DNA of 64,000 nt from Bryopsis sp. KO-2023. Lineage: Eukaryota; Chlorophyta; Ulvophyceae; Bryopsidales; Bryopsidaceae. Numbering within the stretch: the first letter of the stretch is position 1; the number at the start of each line of letters is the position of its first letter. The notes below the pieces were generated by a model that worked only from the letters and a program-made list of their open reading frames with translations, had not been told where the DNA came from and made no database searches. Where the stretch lies: assembly GCA_030272585.1 (NCBI GenBank), contig BSYQ01000009.1, positions 5,580,001-5,644,000 on the forward strand, in the 5' to 3' direction. Positions 1 through 64,000 of this stretch are shown piece by piece. A program made the position numbers and the translations under genes.

Positions 1-17
1 AGGAGGAGGGAGCGTGA

Positions 18-98
18 GCAACGGTGGCCGAGTGGTCAAGGCGTGTGCCTGCTAAGTACATGGGTTATCCCGCGTGAGTTCGAATCTCACCCGTTGCG
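18..98 (+). tRNA. tRNA-Ser-GCT: tRNA-Ser(GCT)
   Basis: Decodes AGC/AGU serine codons. Acceptor GCAACGG pairs with CCGTTGC (91-97), discriminator G98. The anticodon stem TGTGC/GTACA encloses loop CTGCTAA, with the anticodon GCT at 51-53. A class II variable arm (GGG-TTAT-CCC) identifies it as serine. A box TGGCCGAGTGG and B box GTTCGAATC act as the internal Pol III promoter. TTTT at 115-118 is a probable terminator. It is the first gene after the 11378-11450-type tRNA-Glu gene of the preceding unit and sits just before the 42-bp minisatellite. Confidence 0.97.
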
Positions 99-136
99 AC
101 GATACTGCTTGTCGTTTTGCGACCTGACCGTCACAT

Positions 137-955
137 CGTCCGGCGACCTCGGCCCGTAACGGTGGGACTTGTCCGTGGCCTCCGGCGACCTCGTTCCGTA
201 GCGATGGGACTTCTCCGTAGTTTCCGGCGACCTCGGCCCGTAGCGATGGGACTTGTTCGTAGCGATGGGACCTCTCCGTAGCCTCCCGCGACCTCGTCCC
301 GTGACGATGGGACTTCCCCGTAGCCTCCCGCGACCTCGTCCCGTAGCGATGGGACCTCTCCGTAGCCTCCCGCGACCTCGTCCCGTAGCGATGGGACTTC
401 TCCGTAGCCTCCGGCGACCTCGTCCTGTGACGATGGGACCTCTCCGTAGCCTCCCGCGACCTCGTCCCGTGACGATGGGACTTCCCCGTAGCCTCCGGCG
501 ACCTCGTCCCGTAGCGATGGGACCTCTCCGTAGCCTCCGCCGACCTCGTCCCGTAGCGATGGGACTTGTCCGTAGCCTCCCGCGACCTCGTCCCGTGACG
601 ACGGGACTTCCCCGTAGCCTCCGGCGACCTCGGCCCGTAGCGATGGGACCTCTCCGTAGCCTCCCGCGACCTCGTCCCGTAGCGATGGGACCTCTCCGTA
701 GCCTCCCGCGACCTCGTCCCGTGACGATGGGACCTCTCCGTAGCCTCCCGCGACCTCGTCCCGTAGCGATGGGACCTCTCCGTAGCCTCCCGCGACCTCG
801 TCCCGTAGCGATGGGACCTCTCCGTAGCCTCCGGCGACCTCGTCCCGTGACGATGGGACTTCTCCGTGGCCTCCGGCGACCTCGTTCCGTAGCGATGGGA
901 CCTCTCCGTAGCCTCCAGCGACCTCGTTCCGTGACGATGGGACTTCTCCGGAGGT
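137..955. repeat. 42-bp minisatellite, large block
   Basis: About 19-20 imperfect head-to-tail copies of a 42-bp monomer with core GATGGGACCTCTCCGTAGCC and CGCGACCTCGTCCCGT; one copy near 245-265 is partial. Because 42 is a multiple of three and stops are rare, it creates long open frames in several frames of both strands (the longest 322 codons) with 14-residue arginine-rich repeats; I do not regard these as genes. Each monomer has short GTCCC/GGGAC inverted arms. Confidence 0.95.
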
Positions 956-972
956 TCCCACGCAAAACGGGT

Positions 973-1046
973 CGCTCCCTGCAAGGATCGAACTTGCGAC
1001 CTTGCGGTTAACAGCCGCACGCTCTAACCAGCTGAGCTAAGGAAGC
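973..1046 (-). tRNA. tRNA-Asn-GTT: tRNA-Asn(GTT)
   Basis: Reads on the minus strand with acceptor GCTTCCT/AGGGAGC, discriminator G. Anticodon stem TGCGG/CCGCA encloses CTGTTAA; the anticodon GTT is the complement of 1010-1012. A box TAGCTCAGCTGG and B box GTTCGATCC are present, and TTTT lies a few bases downstream (complement of 964-967). It lies at the distal edge of the large 42-bp minisatellite and is transcribed towards it. No intron. Confidence 0.97.
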
Positions 1047-1145
1047 ACGTTTGTCCGTCGTCGGAAGGGGACGCCGTACGCACGGACGACGACGCGACGG
1101 CCCGCCGGGTCGCATAGAGGGGTGCGCGAGGCCGAAACGAGCGGG

Positions 1146-1219
1146 GTGCTCGTGGTGTAGCCGGTTATCACGTCAGTCTCACACACTGAAGGCCCCCGGT
1201 TCGAGCCCGGGCGAGCACA
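1146..1219 (+). tRNA. tRNA-Val-CAC: tRNA-Val(CAC)
   Basis: Acceptor GTGCTCG/CGAGCAC, discriminator A1219. The anticodon loop CTCACAC carries CAC at 1180-1182, reading GUG. B box GGTTCGAGCC. It differs from tRNA-Val(AAC) at 1510-1583 by only four bases: one in the D loop, the first anticodon base and a swapped pair in the anticodon stem, so the two are recent paralogues. No T run of four or more lies close downstream. Confidence 0.97.
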
Positions 1220-1260
1220 AGCTATGCGTCGACAGCTTTCGTGTCGCCCCTCCCTCCAAT

Positions 1261-1457
1261 TTCCGTAACGATGGGACTTCTCCGTAGCTTGCGACGACCT
1301 CTCTTCGTGACGATGGGACTTCTCCGTGGCCTCCGTCGACCTCTTTCCGTAACGATGGGACTTCTCCGTAGTTTCCGACGCCCGTTCCCCGTAACGATGG
1401 GACTTCTCCGTAGCCTCCGGCCACCTCTTTCCGTGACGATGGGACTTCTCCGGAGGC
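1261..1457. repeat. 42-bp minisatellite, short block
   Basis: About five more diverged copies of the same 42-bp monomer (GATGGGACTTCTCCGTAG core), between tRNA-Val(CAC) and tRNA-Val(AAC). Together with the large block it brackets tRNA-Asn and tRNA-Val(CAC). Confidence 0.9.
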
Positions 1458-1509
1458 TCGGGCACGAGAGAGGTATTTGGGCGCGAGTTTCGGCCACCTC
1501 ATCGAACAA

Positions 1510-1583
1510 GTGCTCGTGGTGTAGCTGGTTATCACGTGAGTCTAACACACTCAAGGCCCCCGGTTCGAGCCCGGGCGAGCACA
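1510..1583 (+). tRNA. tRNA-Val-AAC: tRNA-Val(AAC)
   Basis: Acceptor GTGCTCG/CGAGCAC, discriminator A1583. Anticodon stem TGAGT/ACTCA; loop CTAACAC with AAC at 1544-1546 (A34 expected to become inosine, reading GUU/GUC/GUA). The nearest T run is TTTTT at 1642-1646. Paralogue of tRNA-Val(CAC); together they cover the valine box. Confidence 0.97.
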
Positions 1584-1860
1584 CCCAGTCGCTATGAGAT
1601 TGCCTTGGGCCCAATCGAATGACACCGCCAGCGGTGGGGACTTTTTGTCGAGGTAAGTAATGCGTTTGGGTGTGAGTATTGGTTCCGTGAAGTACCGTGA
1701 CTTTCCCTGCCTCGATTCCATCAGCATTGCCCGTGCACGCCCCTGATTTTCTCCCTCCCTCGACGGATGGACAACTCTCTCTCACGCCCCCTTCCTTCAT
1801 CGCTCTCATCACGTTCCGTTCCACCGGCTCGCGGCCCATCAAAGTGAAGGGTCCATCCAA

Positions 1861-1932
1861 AGGGGACAACCAGGTTCGAACTGGTGGCCTATCGATCTGC
1901 AGTCGATTGCTCTACCACTGAGCTATATCCCC
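1861..1932 (-). tRNA. tRNA-Cys-GCA: tRNA-Cys(GCA)
   Basis: Acceptor GGGGATA/TGTCCCC with discriminator U, the residue required by cysteinyl-tRNA synthetase. Anticodon stem ATCGA/TCGAT; anticodon GCA is the complement of 1898-1900. A box TAGCTCAGTGG, B box GTTCGAACC. The only cysteine gene in the unit. Confidence 0.97.
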
Positions 1933-2029
1933 ACGCTCACGACATTCCGATTCCGGGGTCGGCTTTTGTCCGCAAGTGCCTCTCCGCACGCACGACCATG
2001 GCGCGCACGAACGAATCGACAATCGTTTC

Positions 2030-2101
2030 GGCCTAGTGGCTCAATGGTAGAGCATCCGACTCCAGATCGGAAGGTTGCGCGTTCGATTCGCGTCTGGGTC
2101 A
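2030..2101 (+). tRNA. tRNA-Trp-CCA: tRNA-Trp(CCA)
   Basis: Acceptor GGCCTAG/CTGGGTC (two G-U pairs), discriminator A2101. Anticodon stem TCCGA/TCGGA with CCA at 2062-2064. B box GTTCGATTC. No intron. TTTT at 2136-2139 is a plausible terminator; the 18-bp repeat begins just beyond. Confidence 0.97.
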
Positions 2102-2150
2102 TGGCACGTGTTTGCTTGCCTGCCTGCCCGTAACGTTTTCGTAAATTCTC

Positions 2151-2306
2151 TTAAGTACTGTTTGTCCTCAAGTACTGGGGGTGGGTTAAGTACTAGGTGC
2201 ATGTTATGTACTGGGAGCGACTTCAGTACTCGGGGTGAGGTTGTGTATCGGTCAAGGGTTATGCACTAGATGATGCGATCGGTTATGTGTTTTCGATATG
2301 TTTTTT
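2151..2306. repeat. Degenerate 18-bp AGTACT repeat
   Basis: About eight decaying copies of TTAAGTACTGGGGGTG-like monomers spaced about 18 bp apart between tRNA-Trp and 5S. The last copies have lost most of the motif; a short poly-T follows. The rest of 2102-2642 holds nothing I recognise. Confidence 0.7.
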
Positions 2307-2642
2307 TTTTGTCGAGGGAATGAGCGTCGATCTCTCACCGTCTTTGTGCCCGCTCCCTTCGATGTTGGTGAAATGAGCGTGGTCGTGTGTGTGTGCTCGG
2401 TTGGAAGTTTGGTTAGACACGGTGGAGGGTTAGGCGAATCGATAATGTTACGGTGTTAGAGCGCTACGGATATGGTCGGGACGGGCGATGGTTACGATTC
2501 GCTGGGACGAGAACTTCAGACGTTGAACGGAGCATGCAATTGAGCTCTGTTTTGCTGAATGTTGGACCGCTTGCCTCGGATACGAACGTACATTCTGCCC
2601 TCCGCCTTCCATCACGTCCCATCAAGTCCCATCGGGCGAAAA

Positions 2643-2758
2643 GTTGCCGCTGCCGGGTTTCCTGGGACATCCCTGATCCCGGTACTAATCGGCCCCAACC
2701 GTGCTTAATTGGCGAGGTCGGAAGGGATCGCATGTGTTCACGGTGGTATGACGGCAAC
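2643..2758 (-). rRNA. 5S: 5S rRNA
   Basis: Large-subunit 5S rRNA, read on the minus strand. The 5' end GTTGCCG pairs with the 3' end CGGCAAC (helix I). The hallmark CATACC follows near position 10. The internal control region is clear: AATTAAGCACGG and GGGGCCGATTAGTACC (compare the eukaryotic AGCTAAGC...TTAGTAC). TTTT follows directly (complement of 2639-2642) as a Pol III terminator. The span is 116 nt, slightly under the usual 118-121, so one or two terminal bases may be missing from my bounds; the end of loop D/helix IV is somewhat diverged. It sits about 100 bp from tRNA-Ile and is transcribed away from it. Confidence 0.9.
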
Positions 2759-2858
2759 ACGACCTTCTCACGCCCTCCCGCGACAGGTTCCCTTCGAGGT
2801 CGCGTCGCACCCACGCGCACTCATTTCACCCCATCCCGGTCGCCTCCCGTCGTCACCC

Positions 2859-2932
2859 GGCCGAGTAGCTCAGTTGGTTAGAGCGTCGTGCTAATAACGC
2901 GAATGTCGAGGGTTCGATCCCCTTCTTGGCCA
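2859..2932 (+). tRNA. tRNA-Ile-AAT: tRNA-Ile(AAT)
   Basis: Acceptor GGCCGAG/CTTGGCC, discriminator A2932. Anticodon stem TCGTG/CGCGA, loop CTAATAA with AAT at 2893-2895 (inosine reading AUU/AUC/AUA). A box TAGCTCAGTTGG, B box GTTCGATCC. It diverges from the 5S gene, with an intervening gap of 100 bp. No intron. Confidence 0.97.
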
Positions 2933-3041
2933 GCAGGGGGACTCCTGTTTGTGTTTACGGACGTGAGAAACCTCGTGCACGGAGTCGCAAAGTCCGGGGA
3001 CTGCTGGGATGCAAGCGACCGGGGTGAGACGAAGGTGACGT

Positions 3042-3114
3042 CACCCGAGGCAGGGATCGAACCTGCGGCCTATCGCTTAGGAAACGATCGCTCTATCCAC
3101 TGAGCTACACGGGC
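3042..3114 (-). tRNA. tRNA-Arg-CCT: tRNA-Arg(CCT)
   Basis: Acceptor GCCCGTG against CTCGGGT, giving a G1-U72 wobble and a T6-T67 mismatch; discriminator G. Anticodon stem ATCGT/GCGAT around TTCCTAA; anticodon CCT is the complement of 3079-3081 and reads AGG. A box TAGCTCAGTGG, B box GTTCGATCC. The end of the acceptor stem is weaker than in the other genes, but the rest folds fully. Confidence 0.94.
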
Positions 3115-3356
3115 ATCTCGGAATAGGGATGCAAAAGATCGACAAAACATCGACGCTTCGGGTGATACGTTCATTTTGTAGTACGAGCGTTGTAGTACGG
3201 GTTAGTACGGGTTCCAGGGTGTGACTTCGGAGACGACTCTCGTAAAATTAAATTCTCCTGTCTTTGTGTCTCAACCACCCTGTGTTCGAGTTGTGTGTGA
3301 TAAAACCTGATGTCGGGGGGGCATCGAGGGGCTCATACGAAAGCTTTTGATCGTGA

Positions 3357-3427
3357 GCGTTGATGGTACAGTGGTAGCATACTACCCTGCCACGGTAGAG
3401 ACCCGGGTTCGATTCCCGGTCAACGCA
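3357..3427 (+). tRNA. tRNA-Gly-GCC: tRNA-Gly(GCC)
   Basis: 71-nt glycine tRNA. Acceptor GCGTTGA/TCAACGC, discriminator A3427, followed by genomic CCA at 3428-3430, probably by chance. Anticodon stem CTACC/GGTAG with GCC at 3389-3391. B box GGTTCGATTCC. A T run (TTTTT) near 3474 may terminate it. Confidence 0.97.
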
Positions 3428-3823
3428 CCACATCATGTGATGACCCACATGATTCTTTCATCTTCGGTCAATAATTTTTGTCGTGAACTGGCTCCCGCCC
3501 CGGGAAGAGAGAGACAGAGTTATACCCCAAAGGGAAAGCGACAAGAACGTCCCTGAAGTGCAGCAAGATGCGCTTCTCCATGCCCCTCGTCTCTATTGAT
3601 TCCGCAGCGTCCAATCCCCATCCCCGACACAAGCAGGCTGCCACAACGTTCCCGTCCCTCATCAGAACAGCATCAAACTACCAGTTCAGAACGAGAGGAT
3701 AGCCCGCTCGAGCAGTCAGCACCTAACCCGGATCTTTCGGGAGCTGGAAGTGCATCGTGTCGCTGCCCTGCTCGTCGAATGATCGTTTTGCTGTCCGATC
3801 AAAAGGGGATTTGGCATAATTAT
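3428..3823. other. Spacer without recognised content
   Basis: 396 bp between tRNA-Gly(GCC) and tRNA-Asp. I looked for snRNA, SRP RNA and further tRNA motifs on both strands and saw none. Open frames across it run into the flanking tRNA genes. Confidence 0.6.
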
Positions 3824-3895
3824 CGCCGTTGCCGGGAATTGAACCCGGGTCTCCTGCGTGACAGGCAGGAATACTGACCACTATACTACAACGAC
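3824..3895 (-). tRNA. tRNA-Asp-GTC: tRNA-Asp(GTC)
   Basis: Acceptor GTCGTTG/CAACGGC with discriminator G, the aspartate identity base. Anticodon stem CCTGC/GCAGG; anticodon GTC is the complement of 3860-3862. The T loop is TTCAATT. TTTT lies about 20 nt downstream (complement of 3801-3804). Confidence 0.97.
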
Positions 3896-4014
3896 TCCAT
3901 CACGCCCAAAAGTCGAAACGGGGAACCATGTTGGGCCACGTCTCCTACGGCTGGGTCGCATTGTCACCCGAGGGACAACGTTTGTGGAGGGCAATTTGGG
4001 CGATCGAGACATGT

Positions 4015-4021
4015 GCGACTT

Positions 4022-4062
<41 letters not shown>

Positions 4063-4087
4063 TCGTGTTCGATCCACGAAAGTCGCA
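4015..4087 (+). tRNA. tRNA-Phe-GAA: tRNA-Phe(GAA)
   Basis: Acceptor GCGACTT/AAGTCGC, discriminator A4087. Anticodon stem TCAGA/TCTGA around CTGAAGA with GAA at 4048-4050. A box TAGCTCAGTTGG; the T arm CGTGTTCGATCCACG is the B box. Strong T runs follow near 4120-4138. Confidence 0.97.
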
Positions 4088-4213
4088 CTCGACTATGTTG
4101 GTCAAATATTCCGACCCTGTTTTTATGCTTTTTTTTCTCTTCCGGACCAGCCGGATGAACGTGACGCTCGGGGAAGAACGGTATATCCGCAAGGAGGAAC
4201 TTTTCGAATGAAG

Positions 4214-4285
4214 GGCGCTATAGTGTAGTGGTTATCACATTGGACTCTGAATCCAATGACCCGAGTTCGAATCTCGGTAGTGCCT
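4214..4285 (+). tRNA. tRNA-Gln-CTG: tRNA-Gln(CTG)
   Basis: Acceptor GGCGCTA/TAGTGCC, discriminator T4285. Anticodon stem TTGGA/TCCAA, CTG at 4247-4249, reading CAG only. B box GTTCGAATC. TTTTT near 4307 is a likely terminator. No TTG partner for CAA is present in the unit. Confidence 0.96.
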
Positions 4286-4444
4286 CCCAGTTATCCATGT
4301 GTGGTGGGTTTTTCACGTGGCGGGGTGGGGGAACGTCTTCCTTCTTGAAGGTTTCGGAGAAAAAAACCGAATTCCGCAAAAGACCCGACCAAATTCGTCC
4401 TCCAGAGACGATGAAAGACGCAACCACGCCGAAAAAATCGTGAT

Positions 4445-4517
4445 GGGGATGTAGCTCAAATGGCAGAGCGCTCGCTTAGCATGCGAGAGGTACGGGGATC
4501 GATACCCCGCATCTCCA
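4445..4517 (+). tRNA. tRNA-Ala-AGC: tRNA-Ala(AGC)
   Basis: Acceptor GGGGATG/CATCTCC with the G3-U70 pair that marks alanine, discriminator A4517. Anticodon stem CTCGC/GCGAG; AGC at 4478-4480. The T loop is ATCGATA rather than TTCGANN, shared with the other two Ala genes of the unit and, as I recall, with land-plant tRNA-Ala. Confidence 0.97.
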
Positions 4518-4779
4518 CTCATCTATTGAAAATCGTTGCCAAAATTGTTCTTTGAAGTGTGCTTGTTGCCGGAGATGGGCCGTCACTTTGAACACCAAAC
4601 CAAACCGGACATGTTCGACAAGTTAGACCGGTCTGGACGGGTTCGACAGGACGGAATATGCCTAGTCCGGTTCGGTTTGTCGAACCTGTCAGGCATCTTG
4701 TCTAAGAAACTGTCTAGAATTAGTGTGGAACCTGTTTGGACCGATGAATCTGTGTAGACCGATTTTTTTCTTCTCTCAA

Positions 4780-4811
4780 CGGACCGGACCGATCCAAATC
4801 TGTCCGGTCCG
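4780..4811. other. Inverted repeat CGGACCGGAC/GTCCGGTCCG
   Basis: Perfect 10-bp arms with a 12-bp spacer, inside a 300-bp segment (about 4590-4860) rich in GGACCGG and GTTCGAC motifs in both orientations (for example GGTTCGACA near 4638 and TGTCGAACC near 4678). It could be the remains of a small non-autonomous element; no target duplication was identified. Confidence 0.5.
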
Positions 4812-4866
4812 GTCTCGTTATGTTGAACCGGTAAACCAGCAATCCGGTTGCTAGCCCGTCTCAGCT

Positions 4867-5560
4867 AGTTAGGAAACTTTAGGAAGTAACGAAACTCACG
4901 CGTTAATTCAGGTTGGTTAGGAAACTTTAGGAAGGAACGAAACTTAAGCGTATCGATTTAGGCTAGTGAAGAAAGTTACGAAACTTAAGCGTCTCGATTT
5001 GGGTTGGTTAGAGAACTTTGGAAAATAACGAAACTTAAGCGTTTCGATCTAGGCTAGTCAAGAAAGTTACGAAACTTAAGCCATCCGATACAGGTTAGTT
5101 GGGAAACTTTAGAAAGTAACGAAACTTAAGCGTCTCGATTTGGGTTGGTTAGAGAACTTTGGAAAATAACGAAACTTAAGCGTTTCGATCTAGGCTAGTC
5201 AAGAAAGTTACGAAACTTAAGCCATCCGATATAGGTTAGTTGGGAAACTTTAGAAAGTAACGAAACTTGAGCGTCTCGATTTGGGTTGGTTAGAGAACTT
5301 TGGAAAATAACGAAACTTAAGCGTTTCGATCTAGGCTAGTCAAGAAAGTTACGAAACTTAAGCCATCCGATATAGGTTAGTTGGGAAACTTTAGAAAGTA
5401 ACGAAACTTGAGCGTCTCGATTTGGGTTGGTTAGAGAACTTTGGAAAATAACGAAACTTAAGCGTTTGGATTCAGGCTAGTCAAGAAAGCTACGAAACTT
5501 AAGCCATCCGATTTAGGTTAGTTGGGAAACTTTCGAAAATAACGAAACTTAAGCGTTCCG
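4867..5560. repeat. 141-bp higher-order repeat of about 47-bp monomers
   Basis: Monomers share ACGAAACTTAAGC and fall into three types that recur in fixed order (CGTCTCGATTTGGGTTGG, CGTTTCGATCTAGGCTAG, CCATCCGATATAGGTTAG). The first type recurs at 4991, 5132, 5273 and 5414, exactly 141 bp apart. The edges hold more diverged monomers. Confidence 0.92.
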
Positions 5561-5622
5561 ACTCAAGTTTGTGGTGACACCATTTCAACTTGAGCAATAA
5601 CAAACCCGTCACGAGCGAGTGG

Positions 5623-5694
5623 TGTTCGCGGGGAGAATCGAACTCCCGTTTCTTGAGCCACAATCAAGTGTCCTGACCACTAGACGACGCGAAC
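5623..5694 (-). tRNA. tRNA-His-GTG: tRNA-His(GTG)
   Basis: Acceptor GTTCGCG/CGCGAAC, discriminator A. Anticodon stem CTTGA/TCAAG; anticodon GTG is the complement of 5659-5661. The extra 5' G(-1) is not encoded (the preceding base is A), so it would be added after transcription as in other eukaryotes. Genomic CCA follows the discriminator. It borders the 141-bp higher-order repeat. Confidence 0.97.
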
Positions 5695-5792
5695 TCACGA
5701 TTGAGAAGGGTGTTGTCGACGTTTCATGCTTGCTCACACACCCAACCTCGTCAAGCACGAACAAATGTCCCATCGAAGATATCTTGAGCGAA

Positions 5793-5866
5793 GCTCCTTT
5801 AGCTCAGTTGGTTAGAGCACCCGTTTAGTAAGCGGGAGGTCCTGAGTTCAACTCTCAGAGGGAGCA
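5793..5866 (+). tRNA. tRNA-Thr-AGT: tRNA-Thr(AGT)
   Basis: Acceptor GCTCCTT/AGGGAGC, discriminator A5866. Anticodon stem CCCGT/GCGGG around TTAGTAA with AGT at 5827-5829. A box TAGCTCAGTTGG, B box GTTCAACTC (TTCAA in place of TTCGA). Followed after 68 bp by tRNA-Tyr in the same direction. Confidence 0.97.
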
Positions 5867-5934
5867 ATAATTGTTTCGTGAGGTAATTTATGGGGAATGT
5901 ATTAAGTAGGAACGCGGTGATCAATTGATCGACC

Positions 5935-6019
5935 CCGACGATAGCTCAGTTGGCAGAGCGGAGGACTGTAATAGAGTTCAGATATCCTTAGGTCGCCGGT
6001 TCGATTCCGGCTCGTCGGA
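5935..6019 (+). tRNA. tRNA-Tyr-GTA: tRNA-Tyr(GTA), with 12-nt intron
   Basis: Acceptor CCGACGA/TCGTCGG with the C1-G72 pair typical of eukaryotic tyrosine tRNA, discriminator A6019. Anticodon stem GAGGA/TCCTT; GTA at 5968-5970. A 12-nt intron (5972-5983) lies in the canonical place after position 37, leaving a 73-nt mature tRNA. It is the only intron-containing tRNA of the unit and needs the tRNA splicing endonuclease. B box GGTTCGATTCC. Confidence 0.96.
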
Positions 6020-6092
6020 CGAAGCTGTTCCCGCTCGGATAAATCTGATCCAAATTGCCTCAAAATACGTAACTTGGGCCAAGAAATCGTGT

Positions 6093-6165
6093 GCACTCGT
6101 GGCGCAATGGATAGCGTATCAGACTTCGGATCTGAGGGTTGCGAGTTCGAGTCTCGTCGGGTGCA
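6093..6165 (+). tRNA. tRNA-Arg-TCG: tRNA-Arg(TCG)
   Basis: Acceptor GCACTCG/CGGGTGC, discriminator A6165. Anticodon stem TCAGA/TCTGA; TCG at 6126-6128. B box GTTCGAGTC. An AT-rich hairpin (6175-6198) follows at once and TTTT lies near 6216. In copy 3 the array breaks inside the T arm of this gene. Confidence 0.97.
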
Positions 6166-6174
6166 GTATAGTTC

Positions 6175-6198
6175 TCAATATATACGAGAATATATTGA
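6175..6198. other. AT-rich hairpin after tRNA-Arg(TCG)
   Basis: TCAATATAT and ATATATTGA are perfect 9-bp arms around a 6-nt loop, 10 bp past the tRNA end. It could fold in the trailer or stall replication; function unknown. Confidence 0.6.
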
Positions 6199-6368
6199 AT
6201 ATGTTGTAAAATATATATTTTGGACCAACAAAAGGTTTGGAAGAAAAGACTTGAGACTCAGTACTTAAGAGTTTTGCGCTTTGTAAAATTCAGGGATTCG
6301 GGGATTCCAAAAGCTTTAGGGTTTTCAGGTTTTTAGTTTTTTTTTGTTTTCTTAGGTTTTTTAGGTTT

Positions 6369-6624
6369 TTTAGGGTTTAGGGTTTAGGGTTTAGGGGGTT
6401 TAGGGTTTAGGGGGTTTAGCATTTAGGGGGTTTAGGGTTTAGGGTTTAGGGTTTTTAGGGTTTAGGGTTTAGGGTTTAGGGTTTAGGGTTTAGGGTTTAG
6501 GGTTTAGGGTTTAGGGTTTAGGGTTTAGGGTTTAGGGTTTAGGGTTTAGGGTTTAGGGTTTAGGGTTTAGGGTTTAGGGTTTAGGGTTTAGGGTTTAGGG
6601 GTTTAGGGTTTAGGGTTTAGGGGT
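6369..6624. repeat. Interstitial TTTAGGG telomere block
   Basis: Plant-type telomere repeat inside the array. Positions 6454-6600 are 21 perfect TTTAGGG units. They are flanked by imperfect units with extra G or T and preceded by T-rich TTTTTAGG variants. The G-rich strand is the plus strand. tRNA genes lie on both sides, so this is not a chromosome end. Confidence 0.97.
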
Positions 6625-7110
6625 TGGGCGCTAGAACCGTGGAGTCAGGTGTTTAGACTTTGGCGCTTAGAGTTAGGACGTGGGAGTCCGGAAAGTTAGC
6701 CGTTGAGAATTAGGACTTGGGACCTAGGACCTTGAACTTAGAAAAGTTAGGCGATAGAAGTTAAGACTTAGGAATGTTCAACGTTTGGAGTAAGGACTTC
6801 GGACTTTGGACGTTCGAAAGTTTGGTAGTGTCACTTAGGACTTTGGACTTAGGCCTGTAGACTAAGGACTTTGGAGATAGGCCCTAGGAGCTAGGAAAGC
6901 TAGGAAAGTCAGGCGTTTAGACTTCGGACTGACGACTTCGGAATGTTAGGCGTTTGGAGTTAGGACTTTGGACTTTAGTCTTTGGAACGTTTGGAGTTGG
7001 GCCTTCAGACTTGGGGAAGTTACGAGTTGGGGCGTTAGACTTAGGAAGCTTAGGAGTTGGGACATTGGAGTTCGGAAAGATAGGAGTCAAGGCAGGATCT
7101 AGGGAAAGCG
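6625..7110. repeat. Decayed telomere-like tract
   Basis: C-poor sequence made of irregular TTAGGACTT, TTTGGACTT and GGAGTTAGG words, with no exact period. It grades out of the TTTAGGG block and probably descends from it or from a related satellite. No gene is seen. Confidence 0.6.
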
Positions 7111-7129
7111 GGTGATTAAAAAATCGAGA

Positions 7130-7201
7130 GGGATGTTGGTCTAGTGGTATGATTCTCGCTTAGGGTGCGAGAGGCCCCGGGTTCAATTCCCGGACATCCC
7201 C
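7130..7201 (+). tRNA. tRNA-Pro-AGG: tRNA-Pro(AGG)
   Basis: Acceptor GGGATGT/ACATCCC, discriminator C7201. Anticodon stem CTCGC/GCGAG with AGG at 7162-7164. It differs from the following tRNA-Pro(TGG) by two bases, the first anticodon base and one T-loop base (TTCAATT against TTCGATT). It lies just past the decayed telomeric tract. Confidence 0.97.
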
Positions 7202-7285
7202 TCACTCTTTGTGGGCGATCTCGTGTGTGCCTTGCACGAGCTCGGCAACGTGCATGGCCTCCCGTTAACGAGGAAAGAACGAGAT

Positions 7286-7357
7286 GGGATGTTGGTCTAG
7301 TGGTATGATTCTCGCTTTGGGTGCGAGAGGCCCCGGGTTCGATTCCCGGACATCCCC
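7286..7357 (+). tRNA. tRNA-Pro-TGG: tRNA-Pro(TGG)
   Basis: Near-identical duplicate of tRNA-Pro(AGG) 84 bp upstream. TGG at 7318-7320; acceptor GGGATGT/ACATCCC; discriminator C7357; canonical B box GGTTCGATTCC. TTTTT near 7438 may terminate it. Confidence 0.97.
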
Positions 7358-7614
7358 CTTGTGTCTGTTGGGATGGATCCGCAACGAATTTCCTGCTTCC
7401 CATCAAGAGTCGAGATTCAAGAGTACGCGCCTGCTATGCTTTTTCCTTCCTTTCCTTTTTTTCTTGCCTCTGTGCGCATCTCCCGATGGAATCATGTTCG
7501 TTCCATCATGTTAACGTTCTTTGGGAAAACAACGTTCTGAGATGAGACGGTAGTCCGGAGCATCCACGGATATGGGCGTCAGCGCCCGCCTCCGATCGAG
7601 AGCTTTCTGTGTGA

Positions 7615-7698: not shown

Positions 7699-7767
7699 AC
7701 AGATTTTTTGGGGGCCTTGGCACAATCGGTGACGGATGTGCTCAATCGACTTTCCTTCCGTAACGTG

Positions 7768-55950: not shown

Positions 55951-55991
<41 letters not shown>

Positions 55992-56446: not shown

Positions 56447-56795
56447 CTCATCTATTGAAAATCGTTGCCAAAATTGTTCTTTGAAGTGTGCTTGTTGCCG
56501 GAGATGGGCCGTCACTTTGAACACCAAACCAAACCGGACATGTTCGACAAGTTAGACCGGTCTGGACGGGTTCGACAGGACGGAATATGCCTAGTCCGGT
56601 TCGGTTTGTCGAACCTGTCAGGCATCTTGTCTAAGAAACTGTCTAGAATTAGTGTGGAACCTGTTTGGACCGATGAATCTGTGTAGACCGATTTTTTTCT
56701 TCTCTCAACGGACCGGACCGATCCAAATCTGTCCGGTCCGGTCTCGTTATGTTGAACCGGTAAACCAGCAATCCGGTTGCTAGCCCGTCTCAGCT

Positions 56796-57489
56796 AGTTA
56801 GGAAACTTTAGGAAGTAACGAAACTCACGCGTTAATTCAGGTTGGTTAGGAAACTTTAGGAAGGAACGAAACTTAAGCGTATCGATTTAGGCTAGTGAAG
56901 AAAGTTACGAAACTTAAGCGTCTCGATTTGGGTTGGTTAGAGAACTTTGGAAAATAACGAAACTTAAGCGTTTCGATCTAGGCTAGTCAAGAAAGTTACG
57001 AAACTTAAGCCATCCGATACAGGTTAGTTGGGAAACTTTAGAAAGTAACGAAACTTAAGCGTCTCGATTTGGGTTGGTTAGAGAACTTTGGAAAATAACG
57101 AAACTTAAGCGTTTCGATCTAGGCTAGTCAAGAAAGTTACGAAACTTAAGCCATCCGATATAGGTTAGTTGGGAAACTTTAGAAAGTAACGAAACTTGAG
57201 CGTCTCGATTTGGGTTGGTTAGAGAACTTTGGAAAATAACGAAACTTAAGCGTTTCGATCTAGGCTAGTCAAGAAAGTTACGAAACTTAAGCCATCCGAT
57301 ATAGGTTAGTTGGGAAACTTTAGAAAGTAACGAAACTTGAGCGTCTCGATTTGGGTTGGTTAGAGAACTTTGGAAAATAACGAAACTTAAGCGTTTGGAT
57401 TCAGGCTAGTCAAGAAAGCTACGAAACTTAAGCCATCCGATTTAGGTTAGTTGGGAAACTTTCGAAAATAACGAAACTTAAGCGTTCCG
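56796..57489. repeat. 141-bp higher-order repeat
   Basis: Copy 6 of the block at 4867-5560. Confidence 0.92.
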
Positions 57490-57551
57490 ACTCAAGTTTG
57501 TGGTGACACCATTTCAACTTGAGCAATAACAAACCCGTCACGAGCGAGTGG

Positions 57552-57623
57552 TGTTCGCGGGGAGAATCGAACTCCCGTTTCTTGAGCCACAATCAAGTGT
57601 CCTGACCACTAGACGACGCGAAC
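57552..57623 (-). tRNA. tRNA-His-GTG: tRNA-His(GTG)
   Basis: Copy 6 of the gene at 5623-5694. Confidence 0.97.
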
Positions 57624-57721
57624 TCACGATTGAGAAGGGTGTTGTCGACGTTTCATGCTTGCTCACACACCCAACCTCGTCAAGCACGAACAAATGTCCC
57701 ATCGAAGATATCTTGAGCGAA

Positions 57722-57795
57722 GCTCCTTTAGCTCAGTTGGTTAGAGCACCCGTTTAGTAAGCGGGAGGTCCTGAGTTCAACTCTCAGAGGGAGCA
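57722..57795 (+). tRNA. tRNA-Thr-AGT: tRNA-Thr(AGT)
   Basis: Copy 6 of the gene at 5793-5866. Confidence 0.97.
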
Positions 57796-57863
57796 ATAAT
57801 TGTTTCGTGAGGTAATTTATGGGGAATGTATTAAGTAGGAACGCGGTGATCAATTGATCGACC

Positions 57864-57948
57864 CCGACGATAGCTCAGTTGGCAGAGCGGAGGACTGTAA
57901 TAGAGTTCAGATATCCTTAGGTCGCCGGTTCGATTCCGGCTCGTCGGA
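57864..57948 (+). tRNA. tRNA-Tyr-GTA: tRNA-Tyr(GTA), with intron
   Basis: Copy 6 of the gene at 5935-6019; intron at 57901-57912. Confidence 0.96.
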
Positions 57949-58021
57949 CGAAGCTGTTCCCGCTCGGATAAATCTGATCCAAATTGCCTCAAAATACGTA
58001 ACTTGGGCCAAGAAATCGTGT

Positions 58022-58094
58022 GCACTCGTGGCGCAATGGATAGCGTATCAGACTTCGGATCTGAGGGTTGCGAGTTCGAGTCTCGTCGGGTGCA
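58022..58094 (+). tRNA. tRNA-Arg-TCG: tRNA-Arg(TCG)
   Basis: Copy 6 of the gene at 6093-6165. Confidence 0.97.
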
Positions 58095-58297
58095 GTATAG
58101 TTCTCAATATATACGAGAATATATTGAATATGTTGTAAAATATATATTTTGGACCAACAAAAGGTTTGGAAGAAAAGACTTGAGACTCAGTACTTAAGAG
58201 TTTTGCGCTTTGTAAAATTCAGGGATTCGGGGATTCCAAAAGCTTTAGGGTTTTCAGGTTTTTAGTTTTTTTTTGTTTTCTTAGGTTTTTTAGGTTT

Positions 58298-58560
58298 TTT
58301 AGGGTTTAGGGTTTAGGGTTTAGGGGGTTTAGGGTTTAGGGGGTTTAGCATTTAGGGGGTTTAGGGTTTAGGGTTTAGGGTTTTTAGGGTTTAGGGTTTA
58401 GGGTTTAGGGTTTAGGGTTTAGGGTTTAGGGTTTAGGGTTTAGGGTTTAGGGTTTAGGGTTTAGGGTTTAGGGTTTAGGGTTTAGGGTTTAGGGTTTAGG
58501 GTTTAGGGTTTAGGGTTTAGGGTTTAGGGTTTAGGGGTTTAGGGTTTAGGGTTTAGGGGT
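58298..58560. repeat. Interstitial TTTAGGG telomere block
   Basis: Copy 6; 22 perfect units at 58383-58536. Confidence 0.97.
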
Positions 58561-59065
58561 TGGGCGCTAGAACCGTGGAGTCAGGTGTTTAGACTTTGGC
58601 GCTTAGAGTTAGGACGTGGGAGTCCGGAAAGTTAGCCGTTGAGAATTAGGACTTGGGACCTAGGACCTTGAACTTAGAAAAGTTAGGCGATAGAAGTTAA
58701 GACTTAGGAATGTTCAACGTTTGGAGTAAGGACTTCGGACTTTGGACGTTCGAAAGTTTGGTAGTGTCACTTAGGACTTTGGACTTAGGCCTGTAGACTA
58801 AGGACTTTGGAGATAGGCCCTAGGAGCTAGGAAAGCTAGGAAAGTCAGGCGTTTAGACTTCGGACTGACGACTTCGGAATGTTAGGCGTTTGGAGTTAGG
58901 ACTTTGGACTTTAGTCTTTGGAACGTTTGGAGTTGGGCCTTCAGACTTGGGGAAGTTACGAGTTGGGGCGTTAGACTTAGGAAGCTTAGGAGTTGGGACA
59001 TTGGAGTTCGGAAAGATAGGAGTCAAGGCAGGATCTAGGGAAAGCGGGTGATTAAAAAATCGAGA

Positions 59066-59137
59066 GGGATGTTGGTCTAGTGGTATGATTCTCGCTTAGG
59101 GTGCGAGAGGCCCCGGGTTCAATTCCCGGACATCCCC
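59066..59137 (+). tRNA. tRNA-Pro-AGG: tRNA-Pro(AGG)
   Basis: Copy 6 of the gene at 7130-7201. Confidence 0.97.
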
Positions 59138-59221
59138 TCACTCTTTGTGGGCGATCTCGTGTGTGCCTTGCACGAGCTCGGCAACGTGCATGGCCTCCCG
59201 TTAACGAGGAAAGAACGAGAT

Positions 59222-59293
59222 GGGATGTTGGTCTAGTGGTATGATTCTCGCTTTGGGTGCGAGAGGCCCCGGGTTCGATTCCCGGACATCCCC
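59222..59293 (+). tRNA. tRNA-Pro-TGG: tRNA-Pro(TGG)
   Basis: Copy 6 of the gene at 7286-7357. Confidence 0.97.
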
Positions 59294-59550
59294 CTTGTGT
59301 CTGTTGGGATGGATCCGCAACGAATTTCCTGCTTCCCATCAAGAGTCGAGATTCAAGAGTACGCGCCTGCTATGCTTTTTCCTTCCTTTCCTTTTTTTCT
59401 TGCCTCTGTGCGCATCTCCCGATGGAATCATGTTCGTTCCATCATGTTAACGTTCTTTGGGAAAACAACGTTCTGAGATGAGACGGTAGTCCGGAGCATC
59501 CACGGATATGGGCGTCAGCGCCCGCCTCCGATCGAGAGCTTTCTGTGTGA

Positions 59551-59634
59551 GCACAGGTGCCCGAGTGGTCTAAGGGGTTAGACTCAAGTTCTAATGGACG
59601 TCAGTCCGCGTGGGTTCAAATCCCACCCTGTGCA
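59551..59634 (+). tRNA. tRNA-Leu-CAA: tRNA-Leu(CAA)
   Basis: Copy 6 of the gene at 7615-7698. Confidence 0.97.
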
Positions 59635-59703
59635 ACAGATTTTTTGGGGGCCTTGGCACAATCGGTGACGGATGTGCTCAATCGACTTTCCTTCCGTAAC
59701 GTG

Positions 59704-59775
59704 GCGTTGTTAGTCCAACGGTTAGGATACTTGCCTTCCAAGCAAGGGACCCGGGTTCGACTCCCGGACAACGCA
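59704..59775 (+). tRNA. tRNA-Gly-TCC: tRNA-Gly(TCC)
   Basis: Copy 6 of the gene at 7768-7839. Confidence 0.97.
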
Positions 59776-59818
59776 GATGTGAGTTATATCGTTCGAATGT
59801 TTTACGTCATGCAACAGG

Positions 59819-61178
59819 TCCGAGCGTGTCGCATTTTCGGCGAAACCACGTCGCTCCTCGGCTGGTGCTCCGATTGACTCGCTCTTGGTGTCTAAAGACG
59901 CGTCCCGACGAGATCTATCCATAGGTTTTGATCGGGAGTCAATCGGAGGTCTGGTTGGGGAGTTATGGCCGGTACCGTTTCACGAGAGTCTACGTAAGCG
60001 CGATTTTCGGCGAAACGAGGTCGCTCCTCGGCTAGGGCTCCGATTGAGGCGCCCTTGGTGTCAAAAGGAGCGCCTCGACGAGATCTAACCATAGGTTTTG
60101 ATCGGAGGTCAATCGGAGGTCTCGTTGAAGAGTTACGGCCGATACCGTTTCACGAGAGTCTACGTAAGCGCGGTTTTCGGCGAAACGAGGTCGCTCCTCG
60201 GCTAGGGCTCGGATTGAGACGCCCTTGGTGCCAAAAGGAGCGCCTCGACGAGATCTAGCCATAGGTTTTGATCGGAGGTCAATCGGAGGTCTCGTTGAAG
60301 AGTTATGGCCGATACCGTTTCACGAGAGTCTACGTAAGCGCGGTTTTCGGCGAAACGAGGTCGCTCCTCGGCTAGGGCTCGGATTGAGACGCCCTTGGTG
60401 CCAAAAGGAGGGCCTCGACGAGATCTAGCCATAGGTTTTGATCGGAGGTCAATCGGAGGTCTCGTTGAAGAGTTATGGCCGATACCGTTTCGGGTGCTAA
60501 CCGTGAAGCGCGCGCGTGTCGCATTTTCGGCGAAACGATGTCGCTCCTCGGCTAGGGCTCCGATTGAGGCGCCCTTGGTGTCAAAAGACGCGTCTCGACG
60601 AGATCTAGCCATGGGTTTTGATCGGAGGTCAATCGGAGGTCTGGTTTAAGAGTTACGGCCGATACCGTTTCACGAGAGCCTACGTAAGCGCGATTTTCGG
60701 CGAAACGATGTCGCTCCTCGGCTAGGCCTCCGATTGACTCGCTTTTGGTGCCTGAAGACGCGGCTCGATGAGAGCTAGCCATGAGTTTTGATCGCGAGTC
60801 AATCGGAGCTCTGGTTGAAGAGTTATGGCCGATACCGTTTCACGAGAGTCTACGTAAGTGCGATTTTCGGCGAAACGATGTCGCTTCTCGGCTGGTGCTC
60901 CGATTGACGCGCCCTTGGTGCCTAAAGACGCGTCTCGACAAGACCTATCCGTGGGTACCTCTCCCGAGTCAATCGGAGCTCTGGTTGGGGAGTTATGGCC
61001 GATACCGTTTCGGGTGGTGACCGGGAATCGCGCGCGAGGCGCATTTTCGACGAAACGAGGTCGCTCCTCGGGTAGTGCTCCGATTGAGGCGCCCTTGGTG
61101 TCATAAGACGCGTCTCAACGAGACCAAGCCACAGAAAGTCGTTGCGAGTCAATCGGAGAAGTGGTTGGGGAGCTATGG
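59819..61178. repeat. 170/180-bp satellite, eight copies
   Basis: Copy 6 of the block at 7883-9242. Confidence 0.94.
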
Positions 61179-61297
61179 ACAAAAACGTTTGGGGCGCTCT
61201 CGCTCCGAGCTCAAGGCGCCCCCATAACTACACCGAAAAGTCATCGTCATCTGAAAGGCGGGATCCTGAGTTCGGCTTGTCGTTGCAAAAATACGTA

Positions 61298-61370
61298 GGG
61301 GGTGTAGCTCAAATGGCAGAGCGCTCGATTCGCATTCGAGAGGCACGGGGATCGATACCCCGCTCCTCCA
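61298..61370 (+). tRNA. tRNA-Ala-CGC: tRNA-Ala(CGC)
   Basis: Copy 6 of the gene at 9362-9434. Confidence 0.96.
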
Positions 61371-62087
61371 GCCCAGCTTATTTGTTGCCTTGGTCAAGAG
61401 CCGTTGCTCGTTGGCGGAGTGTGAAAATGCTGTCGTGCAACGGATCCGTTGTATGTGAGGGGTGAGTGAAGGCCAACGGCTTGAGACGAAAACCAATTTA
61501 ATAAGAACAACGAAAACCTTTCCCGATTATCGAGGTTCCATTGGGGTAGTTCATTTCAAAATTTCTGGGAATTTTGGTCGGAAGAGGGTAGGATCGCCCA
61601 ATTGGTGTTTGGGGAAATTTCGACGTGGAGAGTATATCAACAACTTTGAGAGAGTATGAGAGAGTTTGGTTAATCTAGGTACTGATACTGAAGGATGAAT
61701 TCTTTGATTGGAGTAATTGTGTGGAACAATGGTTGCGATAGGGGGGAGTGGCCCCTCAGGAAAAAATATGTAATTATTGTTATTTCCACGACGACAACAA
61801 CACCACGCGCCCGAGCCACTATCAACATATCCGTTCCGTCTCACACCGTAGTGCTCCGTACTCATATCTCGTACTCTATCCTAGAATAAACCCTCCACCA
61901 AATCCCACCGTCATCCTCGTCATTCCTACATCTCAATCAAAATCCTCCGAACGATCCCACTTTCGTCCTCGTCATTTCTACGTCCTTACCACCCTTTCCG
62001 ATCGATCACGATCACTCCCATTTGACACAAAGCACCGTCCGCCTCTTTGGATCGATGATTTGAGGGATGTTTCTCAGCAATAGGGGT

Positions 62088-62160
62088 CGCCCGAGGAGGG
62101 GCTCGAACCCTCGACCACAAGATTAAGAGTCTTGCGCTCTACCGACTGAGCTACCCGGGC
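62088..62160 (-). tRNA. tRNA-Lys-CTT: tRNA-Lys(CTT)
   Basis: Copy 6 of the gene at 10152-10224. Confidence 0.97.
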
Positions 62161-62266
62161 AGACGAAAAAGTGTTCCGGATCGCCGTCCACGTCCCCCGT
62201 CGCTCCGGCCTTGCGTCGCTGAACGCGGTAGGGGTTAGGTGCCTTCGACGGGGGAGGATTTTTGTA

Positions 62267-62338
62267 TTCGGAGTGGCGCAGTGGAAGCGTGGTGGGCCCA
62301 TAACCCACAGGTCCCAGGATCGAAACCTGGCTCCGAAA
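62267..62338 (+). tRNA. tRNA-iMet-CAT: Initiator tRNA-Met(CAT)
   Basis: Copy 6 of the gene at 10331-10402. Confidence 0.95.
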
Positions 62339-62406
62339 GGCGTGCGACTCGTGTCGATGGTCGAAAGAAAGGGTCGTAGCGGAAATTCCGCACCCTTTTT
62401 TGCGTG

Positions 62407-62479
62407 GGGGTTGTAGCTCAGATGGTAGAGCGCTTGCTTTGCATGCGAGAGGCACGGGGATCGATGCCCCGCAGCTCCA
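62407..62479 (+). tRNA. tRNA-Ala-TGC: tRNA-Ala(TGC)
   Basis: Copy 6 of the gene at 10471-10543. Confidence 0.97.
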
Positions 62480-62538
62480 GCCAATTTCGTTCTGAGTGAG
62501 GCACAGGGCCCCGAATGATCACCGCGACGGAGTATGAG

Positions 62539-62586
62539 GGTTGCGAGCGGGAGGTGCGGGGATCGAGGCCCCGCACCTCCGGGCGA
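62539..62586 (+). pseudogene. tRNA-Ala(TGC) 3'-half pseudogene 1
   Basis: Copy 6 of the remnant at 10603-10650. Confidence 0.75.
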
Positions 62587-62640
62587 TTCTGTTTTGAGTG
62601 AGGTACGGGCCCCCGAATTATTACCGCGACGGAGTATCAG

Positions 62641-62688
62641 GGTTGCAAGCGGGAGGTGCAGGGATCGAGGCCCCGCACCTCCGGGCGA
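62641..62688 (+). pseudogene. tRNA-Ala(TGC) 3'-half pseudogene 2
   Basis: Copy 6 of the remnant at 10705-10752. Confidence 0.75.
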
Positions 62689-62891
62689 TTTTGGCGTGGG
62701 AGGGCCCAAAACATGTCCTTCTTGTGACCGGGGTCGGTGCGTCGGTGTCGGGAGGCGCGGGTCGGGTGCTCGAGCCTTCGGGGGGGAGCGTTCTTTCGTG
62801 CTCCGGATGGCCGACGATGGGAGTAGATGGGCGTGACGGCGCGATTAATTTTAAGGTAATGAGTGCATTATAAAATTTATTTAGGGGTGCA

Positions 62892-62968
62892 GGGGGGGGG
62901 GCGCGTGACGGCGCGCTTTCTGTAAAGGTATACCGTGGAAAAAATTTTATATGTAGGGGGGGGGGGGG
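62892..62968. repeat. Poly-G tracts
   Basis: Copy 6 of the tracts at 10956-11032. Confidence 0.8.
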
Positions 62969-63161
62969 CGCGCAGAAATCGTACGACGCGGACTCGACGA
63001 GGGGTCGGACGCGGGCCAAAAAATCTCCAAATCCCCCGAGCACGGCCGAAATGGGCCTGTTTTCGCCCGTTTTCCGGGAAGCCACACTCTATTTAAGCCG
63101 GAATGCGCTCCCGAACTCGCGACAAGGCCCTTGAACGCGCCTCCCATGGGTCTCGTGCGCG

Positions 63162-63234
63162 GACCTTGTGGCCAAATGGATAAGGCGTCGGTCTACGAAA
63201 CCGAAGATTGCAGGTTCGACCCCTGCCAAGGTCG
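63162..63234 (+). tRNA. tRNA-Arg-ACG: tRNA-Arg(ACG)
   Basis: Copy 6 of the gene at 11226-11298. Confidence 0.97.
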
Positions 63235-63313
63235 ACGGACGTCGGGTTTCGGAGAGCTTCTCCGTCCCGCGACGCGCTCATGTAGCGGCCCGGCCGCTTC
63301 GGAAACGTGCGCC

Positions 63314-63386
63314 TCCGTCGTAGTCTAGGTGGTTAGGACATGTGGCTCTCACCCACAAGACCCGGGTTCGAGTCCCGGCGACGGAA
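63314..63386 (+). tRNA. tRNA-Glu-CTC: tRNA-Glu(CTC)
   Basis: Copy 6 of the gene at 11378-11450. Confidence 0.97.
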
Positions 63387-63471
63387 TCGTCCGCGCCCTT
63401 TTCGCCCCCGTGGAGGCGCCCCCTCCGGGCGTTTCGCGACCAGGAGGGCGAGGGAGGAGGAGGGAGCGTGA

Positions 63472-63552
63472 GCAACGGTGGCCGAGTGGTCAAGGCGTGT
63501 GCCTGCTAAGTACATGGGTTATCCCGCGTGAGTTCGAATCTCACCCGTTGCG
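63472..63552 (+). tRNA. tRNA-Ser-GCT: tRNA-Ser(GCT)
   Basis: Copy 7 of the gene at 18-98. Confidence 0.97.
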
Positions 63553-63590
63553 ACGATACTGCTTGTCGTTTTGCGACCTGACCGTCACAT

Positions 63591-64000
63591 CGTCCGGCGA
63601 CCTCGGCCCGTAACGGTGGGACTTGTCCGTGGCCTCCGGCGACCTCGTTCCGTAGCGATGGGACTTCTCCGTAGTTTCCGGCGACCTCGGCCCGTAGCGA
63701 TGGGACTTGTTCGTAGCGATGGGACCTCTCCGTAGCCTCCCGCGACCTCGTCCCGTGACGATGGGACTTCCCCGTAGCCTCCCGCGACCTCGTCCCGTAG
63801 CGATGGGACCTCTCCGTAGCCTCCCGCGACCTCGTCCCGTAGCGATGGGACTTCTCCGTAGCCTCCGGCGACCTCGTCCTGTGACGATGGGACCTCTCCG
63901 TAGCCTCCCGCGACCTCGTCCCGTGACGATGGGACTTCCCCGTAGCCTCCGGCGACCTCGTCCCGTAGCGATGGGACCTCTCCGTAGCCTCCGCCGACCT
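63591..64000. repeat. 42-bp minisatellite, cut by window end
   Basis: Copy 7 of the block at 137-955; only the first half is in the window. Confidence 0.95.

Follow-up and report, generated by a model that had tools for sequence, protein, structure and literature searches.

We analysed a stretch of 64,000 nucleotides (the window) from the green alga Bryopsis sp. KO-2023, which covers positions 5,580,001 to 5,644,000 of contig BSYQ01000009.1 (C9 in what follows) in GenBank assembly GCA_030272585.1. The window lies near the right end of this 5.68-Mb contig, and the assembly comprises 91.09 Mb in 28 contigs. The window is occupied by a tandem array whose unit, here called unit A, carries genes for 27 tRNAs and one gene for 5S ribosomal RNA (rRNA). 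ARAGORN identifies 149 tRNA genes in the window, in an order that recurs at steps of 11,518 and 11,525 bp. The head-to-tail repetition across the window claimed in the original prediction, which had been made from the letters alone, is borne out by these steps save for one segment from 29,188 to about 30,380.

When introns are allowed, ARAGORN finds in one unit A 27 tRNA genes, followed by the first gene of the next unit. Their order is Ser-GCT, Asn, Val-CAC, Val-AAC, Cys, Trp, Ile-AAT, Arg-CCT, Gly-GCC, Asp, Phe, Gln-CTG, Ala-AGC, His, Thr-AGT, Tyr, Arg-TCG, Pro-AGG, Pro-TGG, Leu-CAA, Gly-TCC, Ala-CGC, Lys-CTT, Met, Ala-TGC, Arg-ACG and Glu-CTC. All 27 anticodons are distinct, and 20 amino acids are served. 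Matches to the Rfam tRNA model score 54–72 bits against a cut-off of 29, apart from a single weak match of 31 bits at 29,129–29,185. Val(AAC) was overlooked by the first Rfam scan and scored 60 bits when it was run against the tRNA model separately. A second Ile gene of 86 nt was rejected, as it becomes tRNA-Tyr(GTA) with a 12-nt intron once introns are allowed. The Met gene is initiator-like by sequence, with what we take to be the features of plant initiator tRNAs. The 5S rRNA model (RF00001) has six matches in the window, at 86.4 bits each, one per unit A and on the minus strand. The unit thus has the predicted tRNAs for all 20 amino acids and the predicted 5S gene. It had also been described as free of protein genes and none was seen: of the ten open reading frames of at least 120 amino acids, a Pfam scan at E 0.01 covered eight and gave no match, and the remaining two overlap the 42-bp repeat block.

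Only some spacers of unit A contain tandem repeats, the larger of which have periods of 42, 141, 170 and 102 bp, in addition to a TTTAGGG tract. This tract consists of the repeat found at the organism's own telomeres and is oriented as a right-hand telomere; it may be a mark of chromosome-end origin. Selected genes and repeats of the first unit are as follows.

139 to 950, no strand: 42-bp tandem repeat block (tandem-repeat listing)
2030 to 2101, plus strand: tRNA-Trp(CCA), 23 full copies in the assembly, all within A arrays
2641 to 2759, minus strand: 5S rRNA gene, first of six in the window (RF00001, 86.4 bits)
4214 to 4285, plus strand: tRNA-Gln(CTG), 24 full copies in the assembly, all within A arrays
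4868 to 5567, no strand: 141-bp tandem repeat block, left limit partly by eye
5935 to 6019, plus strand: tRNA-Tyr(GTA) with a 12-nt intron, called Ile if introns are disallowed
6315 to 6622, plus strand: TTTAGGG (telomere-type) tract, about 35 copies at 6369–6622, left part looser
7897 to 9262, no strand: 170-bp satellite block (repeat listing and satellite search)
10331 to 10402, plus strand: tRNA-Met(CAT), initiator-like by sequence, 23 full copies in the assembly, all within A arrays

The window as a whole is laid out as follows.

18 to 11535, plus strand: unit A copy 1 (11,518 bp), from tRNA-Ser(GCT) to the base preceding the next tRNA-Ser(GCT)
11536 to 23053, plus strand: unit A copy 2 (11,518 bp), identical to copy 1
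23054 to 29187, plus strand: first 6,134 bp of unit A copy 3, identical to copy 2
29188 to 30380 (right limit approximate), no strand: assembly artefact in which two unit segments, about 6–1480 and about 6148–7190, are interleaved
30381 to 40421, plus strand: unit A from about unit position 1,480 to its end, following the artefact, 99.8% identical to copy 1
40422 to 51946, plus strand: unit A copy 4 (11,525 bp), from unit comparison
51947 to 63471, plus strand: unit A copy 5 (11,525 bp), identical to copy 4
63472 to 64000, plus strand: start of the next unit A, from the ARAGORN gene order

The sole difference between the 11,518-bp and 11,525-bp kinds of unit is one 7-bp telomere-type repeat. 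From 29,188 to about 30,380, at whose edge the weak tRNA match lies, short and mostly colinear blocks alternate between the two unit segments. This stretch is an assembly artefact resembling the consensus of wrongly overlapped reads, since the interleaving of two unit sources is what misaligned reads would give and is a pattern that recombination is not expected to make. A biological half-unit deletion at 29.2 kb was rejected, as the segment switches between its sources over short distances. The truncated unit after it, which ends at 40,421, is probably a mis-join. Given an artefact within the window, neither the number of units nor their perfect identity is trustworthy.

The array is not confined to the window. 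With tRNA-Trp as a marker there are 23 copies of unit A, eleven on C5 (6.91–7.04 Mb), nine on C9 and three on C10, and the head-to-tail unit junction is present on all three contigs. The versions on these contigs have diverged, with periods of 11.0 and 11.5 kb and with different edges and element insertions. Since the units on C5 and C10 differ from those of the window, the tandem repetition is not the product of one single assembly error. A query with Val-CAC returned 39 matches in the assembly, of which 22 are Val-CAC and 15 Val-AAC genes in A arrays and two lie elsewhere (C9:5389783 and C9:2143829).

Whole-assembly searches identified no full-length copy of tRNA-Trp, initiator Met or Gln-CTG outside the A arrays. 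For tRNA-Trp, 23 of 24 matches are full length, 100% identical and within A arrays, and the other is a 57-nt fragment on C3. Initiator Met gives the same picture with 23 of 24 matches, the exception being a 52-nt fragment on C1, and so does Gln-CTG with 24 of 25, where the exception is a match of 67 nt at 90% on C5. Copies from the mis-joined part of C9 enter all three counts. The sequences of organellar tRNAs have presumably diverged too far to surface in these searches.

Telomeres of TTTAGGG repeats are present at one or both ends of C1, C3, C4, C5, C7, C9, C15 and C16, and C1 and C4 have ordinary telomeres of this type at both ends. On C5 and C9 the left end is telomeric, while the right end stops inside the array without a telomere. 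C10 has no telomere at either end, and the contig runs past the array into other sequence. The 170-bp satellite gave 227 matches, and those listed (about two-thirds) fall at the array sites on C5, C9 and C10 and on C15 at 36–37 kb. At its start, C15 has at least 4 kb of telomere tract. A 4.8-kb remnant of unit A (33,290–38,072) with eight tRNAs lies 33 kb from this telomere, and in it an Ala-CGC gene is joined to an Ala-AGC gene by a fusion point inside the gene. The telomere-side edge of the remnant is at about nucleotide 19 of tRNA-Arg(TCG), the same junction base as at the edge of the C10 array, and the element that follows is common to both edges with 87% identity over 1.09 kb. The plus strand of unit A points towards the telomere on C15 and towards the telomere-less contig end on C5, C9 and C10. 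We infer that the arrays on these last three contigs are probably near chromosome ends.

A second array, here array B, occurs in several blocks on C5 at 2.77–3.77 Mb, with common unit lengths of 2.96–3.46 kb and 12 tRNAs. These are Asp, Ser-CGA, Glu-TTC, Leu-AAG, Ile-TAT, Thr-TGT, Pro-CGG, Thr-CGT, Arg-TCT, an elongator-type Met with a 12-nt intron, Leu-CAG and Ser-AGA; the copies were mapped from candidate listings of which the best 40 of 75 and the best 40 of 101 were scored. Only Asp-GTC is common to the anticodons of A and B when the initiator and elongator Met (both CAT) are kept apart. In a random draw about seven would be expected in common, and by a rough model, in which the numbers of tRNA types are assumed, the probability of an overlap of one or none is about 1e-6 to 1e-4. 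A further unit of about 10.2 kb, unit C, near C5:5.82–5.84 Mb, brings Lys-TTT, Gly-CCC and one 5S gene.

The original prediction of a near-complete decoding set in unit A does not stand. Even under permissive wobble, and with the initiator Met excluded, unit A reads 46 of the 61 codons, and array B supplies most of the rest: A and B together read 58, and with unit C 59. The corresponding numbers under strict pairing are 40, 53 and 55. The codons left uncovered by all three under permissive wobble are CAA and TTA.

Several features suggest that the array genes are functional. In a comparison of the first unit of the window with six stretches (two each from C5, C10 and C9, repeat blocks excluded), 9 of 7,124 columns in tRNA and 5S genes carry substitutions vs 180 of 19,203 spacer columns (Fisher P 2e-15, which is overstated given the common ancestry of the six stretches and a single gene site that contributes four of the nine substitutions). 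The genes are clearly less diverged than the spacers between unit copies, by about sevenfold. A CGTG lies within the last 12 nt upstream of 16 of the 39 tRNA genes of A and B, compared with 1–5 of 39 (mean 2.3) in seven windows further upstream, and is likely a start-site motif. The observed/expected ratio of CpG is 1.20 in A and 1.19 in B, compared with 0.60–0.93 in five other stretches, which fits little past methylation. The 5S gene of unit A has TTTT at its 3' end.

On the basis of the sequence, we consider it likely that the window belongs to a genuine tandem megasatellite, which acts as a gene bank for the RNAs of translation. Each unit A would contribute one gene for each of 27 tRNAs and one for 5S rRNA, and array B would complement it, the two together reading almost the whole code. 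RNA polymerase III (Pol III) would transcribe the genes singly or in short groups from internal promoters. Unequal exchange and gene conversion would duplicate, delete and homogenise units, keeping them alike within an array while the arrays on different contigs drift apart. The array would be retained because it is the only place for several tRNAs. As the whole unit is the object copied, the doses of the 27 tRNAs and of 5S rRNA would shift together, and this co-dosage may be a benefit. The fusion on C15, provided that it is no assembly error, and those array edges that fall within tRNA genes may be traces of exchange and element insertion. A role in supplying translation RNAs had been suggested in the original prediction, and it gains support from the lack of full-length genes elsewhere for the three essential tRNAs Trp, initiator Met and Gln-CTG and from the conservation of genes between units. 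The structural role raised there as an alternative is possible, and the distinct kind of Pol III domain also proposed there goes beyond what the sequence shows.

A more far-reaching possibility, which we put forward tentatively, is that the nuclear decoding set is split over a pair of megasatellites without redundancy, of which one sits at chromosome ends, and that the unit count alone sets the dosage of the 27 tRNAs and 5S, in fixed proportion to one another. In that case translation capacity would be tuned by array length through fast unequal exchange, as ribosomal DNA does for rRNA. The usual scattering of tRNA gene families in eukaryotes raises the question of how their doses are balanced. 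Unit A and array B form a natural case for testing whether tRNAs can be dosed as a block, with concerted evolution maintaining uniformity; they also bear on what such arrays do near chromosome ends.

A number of observations weigh against a gene bank of this kind. The exact identity of units may stem from polishing, and the fusion of Ala genes on C15 could be an assembly error too. Val-AAC is detectable in only 3 of the 11 units on C5 (8 of 11 are without it), and the count of 27 genes applies to the units of the window. A run of TTTT or longer occurs within 30 nt downstream of 7 of the 27 tRNA genes of A and 5 of the 12 of B, where the background is 11% and 14%. With T runs this scarce, ordinary Pol III termination is not evident for most of the tRNA genes, and read-through, grouped transcripts or another stop signal are possible. 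Arg-TCT, a member of set B, has at least five copies outside the arrays among the best 40 of 75 candidates scored; in the genome-wide search with the tRNA model (RF00005), 63 of 8,630 candidates were scored. The copies of B that were scored (the best 40 of 101) are internal on C5, at 2.77–3.77 Mb, so that a subtelomeric site is unnecessary for the proposed role. No gene for Gln-TTG or Leu-TAA was found, a negative that has no complete tRNA census behind it. Gln-TTG was identified neither by the Gln-CTG query nor by one exact pattern, designed from the D and anticodon arms that Gln tRNAs usually have, and a diverged gene could escape both. Permuted tRNA genes, which occur in some green algae (PMC12636532), were left out of the search and may conceal the missing anticodons.

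It is very unlikely that one or a few units were inflated into arrays by the assembly. One segment of the window is clearly artefactual, units are identical to the base, and C5 and C9 end inside arrays, all of which an artefact would explain. However, three contigs carry diverged versions with two periods and with different edges and insertions, and each of the three has the head-to-tail junction. An origin as a selfish or neutral satellite, in which a tRNA cluster was amplified by chance and most copies are silent, would agree with the near-identity of units and with the decayed pieces outside the arrays, and the Ser/Tyr cluster of Arabidopsis shows that such arrays can be mostly silent (PMC12308677). 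We regard this origin as improbable, since three essential tRNAs have no full-length copy elsewhere, the genes are conserved in arrays that are CpG-rich, and the contents of A and B are complementary and non-redundant. For surplus copies, a selfish or silent nature could still hold.

Somewhat more weight, while still unlikely, attaches to the proposal made for Entamoeba, which would make the arrays mainly chromosome-end structures with the tRNA genes as passengers or boundary elements. Every unit A contains the genome's own telomere repeat. The C15 remnant is 33 kb from a telomere with the unit's plus strand towards it, the plus strand on C5, C9 and C10 faces a telomere-less contig end, and C5 and C9, telomeric at the left, stop inside the array at the right. 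The part of the original prediction that concerned the telomere repeat is upheld in that TTTAGGG is the organism's own; however, ordinary telomeres exist as well, and with C1 and C4 bearing them at both ends the arrays are no general replacement for telomeres. Furthermore, conservation falls on the genes and not the spacers, the scored B copies are internal, and the C10 array says little as both ends of that contig lack a telomere. A gene bank whose A arrays are probably placed near chromosome ends remains our preferred interpretation.

Tandem arrays with several tRNA genes per unit are already known, and one unit serving all 20 amino acids is a new and large variant of them. The 3.18-kb tRNA gene (tDNA) repeat of Xenopus laevis holds about eight tRNA genes in many tandem copies, which is fewer tRNAs than unit A, and to our knowledge has no 5S gene. 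In titles and the openings of abstracts, with subscription papers mostly outside reach, we found no account of a 27-tRNA unit for all amino acids with a complementary array. Entamoeba, named as a precedent in the original prediction, is an apt one, with a far smaller unit in the text available. E. histolytica has 25 types of array with 1–5 tRNA types per unit, some with 5S, that make up more than 10% of the genome, and no telomere-like repeats were found there according to the available text (PMC2652664). The systems are alike in their tandem units of mixed tRNA types, some with 5S and near-uniform between copies, in the retroelements that adjoin arrays and in the chromosome-end position proposed (PMC2652664). 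They differ in that the Bryopsis units hold 27 and 12 tRNAs and ordinary telomeres are present in Bryopsis. As far as the accessible portion tells, short tandem repeats separate all arrayed genes in E. histolytica (they are absent in some other species), whereas unit A has them in some spacers only. Arrays of the Entamoeba type take in almost all tRNA genes of a genome; here three of the tRNAs searched for are full length in arrays only, and Arg-TCT is found elsewhere too.

A survey from 2010 names E. histolytica as the only species for which tandem repeats of tRNA genes had been reported until then, and adds that large clusters appear independently in other groups too (PMC2888827). The tRNA array at human and mouse 1q23.3, a variable-number tandem repeat (VNTR), has a 7.3-kb unit rich in GC and CpG, with tRNAs on both strands and 9–43 copies, and its genes are conserved to mouse while its spacers are not (PMC4041453). 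In contrast to unit A, the human unit has five tRNAs, of which identical copies exist elsewhere in the genome, and the available part of the report mentions no 5S gene (PMC4041453). Like a tDNA macrosatellite (VNTR), unit A is of kb scale, tandem and highly identical between units; such satellites also vary in copy number from one individual to another, and the present analysis covers one assembly. Within the green lineage, repeats of one to five tRNA types are described from 50 plant species, including head-to-tail groups such as the Pro and Tyr-Tyr-Ser clusters of Arabidopsis and the two- and three-gene 'Cpu' repeats of bryophytes (PMC12652284). In the portion of that study available, the plant clusters differ in having no whole-code sets, and no 5S is mentioned (PMC12652284). 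Assemblies may end in such arrays or mis-join them, and caution is warranted as tRNA gene content would then be misreported.

On C10, the initiator Met copies are about 25.5 kb apart (5077324, 5102872 and 5128411), and the units there seem to have been enlarged by insertions and then duplicated together with the insertion. An element of the long interspersed nuclear element (LINE) type with a reverse transcriptase domain lies inside tRNA-Val(CAC) of a C10 unit (C10:5079001-5080000) and is flanked by a 13-bp target-site duplication. A second LINE-type element follows the break in tRNA-Arg(TCG) on C10 and C15 alike. The tRNA-associated elements tabulated in a review insert beside, not within, tRNA genes (PMC5911963).

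Pieces of unit A are also found outside the arrays. At C3:3193205-3193661, a distant site, 257 bp of unit A (98% identity) are cut inside tRNA-Trp, an instance of the dispersal of array DNA. About 20 kb before the C5 array, an inverted and decayed piece of unit A (C5:6886001-6886800; 84%) contains a Gln-like tRNA with a TTA anticodon. This gene (C5:6886370) scores 47 bits against the tRNA-model cut-off of 29, and its T stem is mismatched by manual reading. A role as a stop-reading tRNA was set aside, given a flank that is 84% identical to unit A and a predicted fold no better than that of shuffled sequences. We provisionally treat the gene as a relic. A Val-like tRNA with a CTC (Glu) anticodon adjoins unit A spacer at 95% identity at C9:5389583-5390055.

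Other Pol III loci include a separate 5S cluster near the start of C13 (C13:74535-114169) and single 5S genes (from the best 47 of 4,213 candidates scored), and the start of C13 resembles part of a 5S gene. Seven tRNA-Ile(TAT) genes at C12:868828-1501504 lie outside any tRNA cluster, in diverged repeats (about 80–99% identity), and the sequence upstream of each gene is T-rich; these are possibly a repeated or mobile element that carries a tRNA. C27 (356,152 bp) was taken as mitochondrial from its size and from a GC content of 56% in one 3-kb piece; the mitochondrial genome of Bryopsis hypnoides has 408,555 bp and 57.9% GC (PMC11852573). C28 (91,672 bp) is the plastid genome, with two matches to the photosynthetic reaction centre family. 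One of the two is a complete psbA frame, whose entire product aligns with photosystem II D1 proteins of solved structure.

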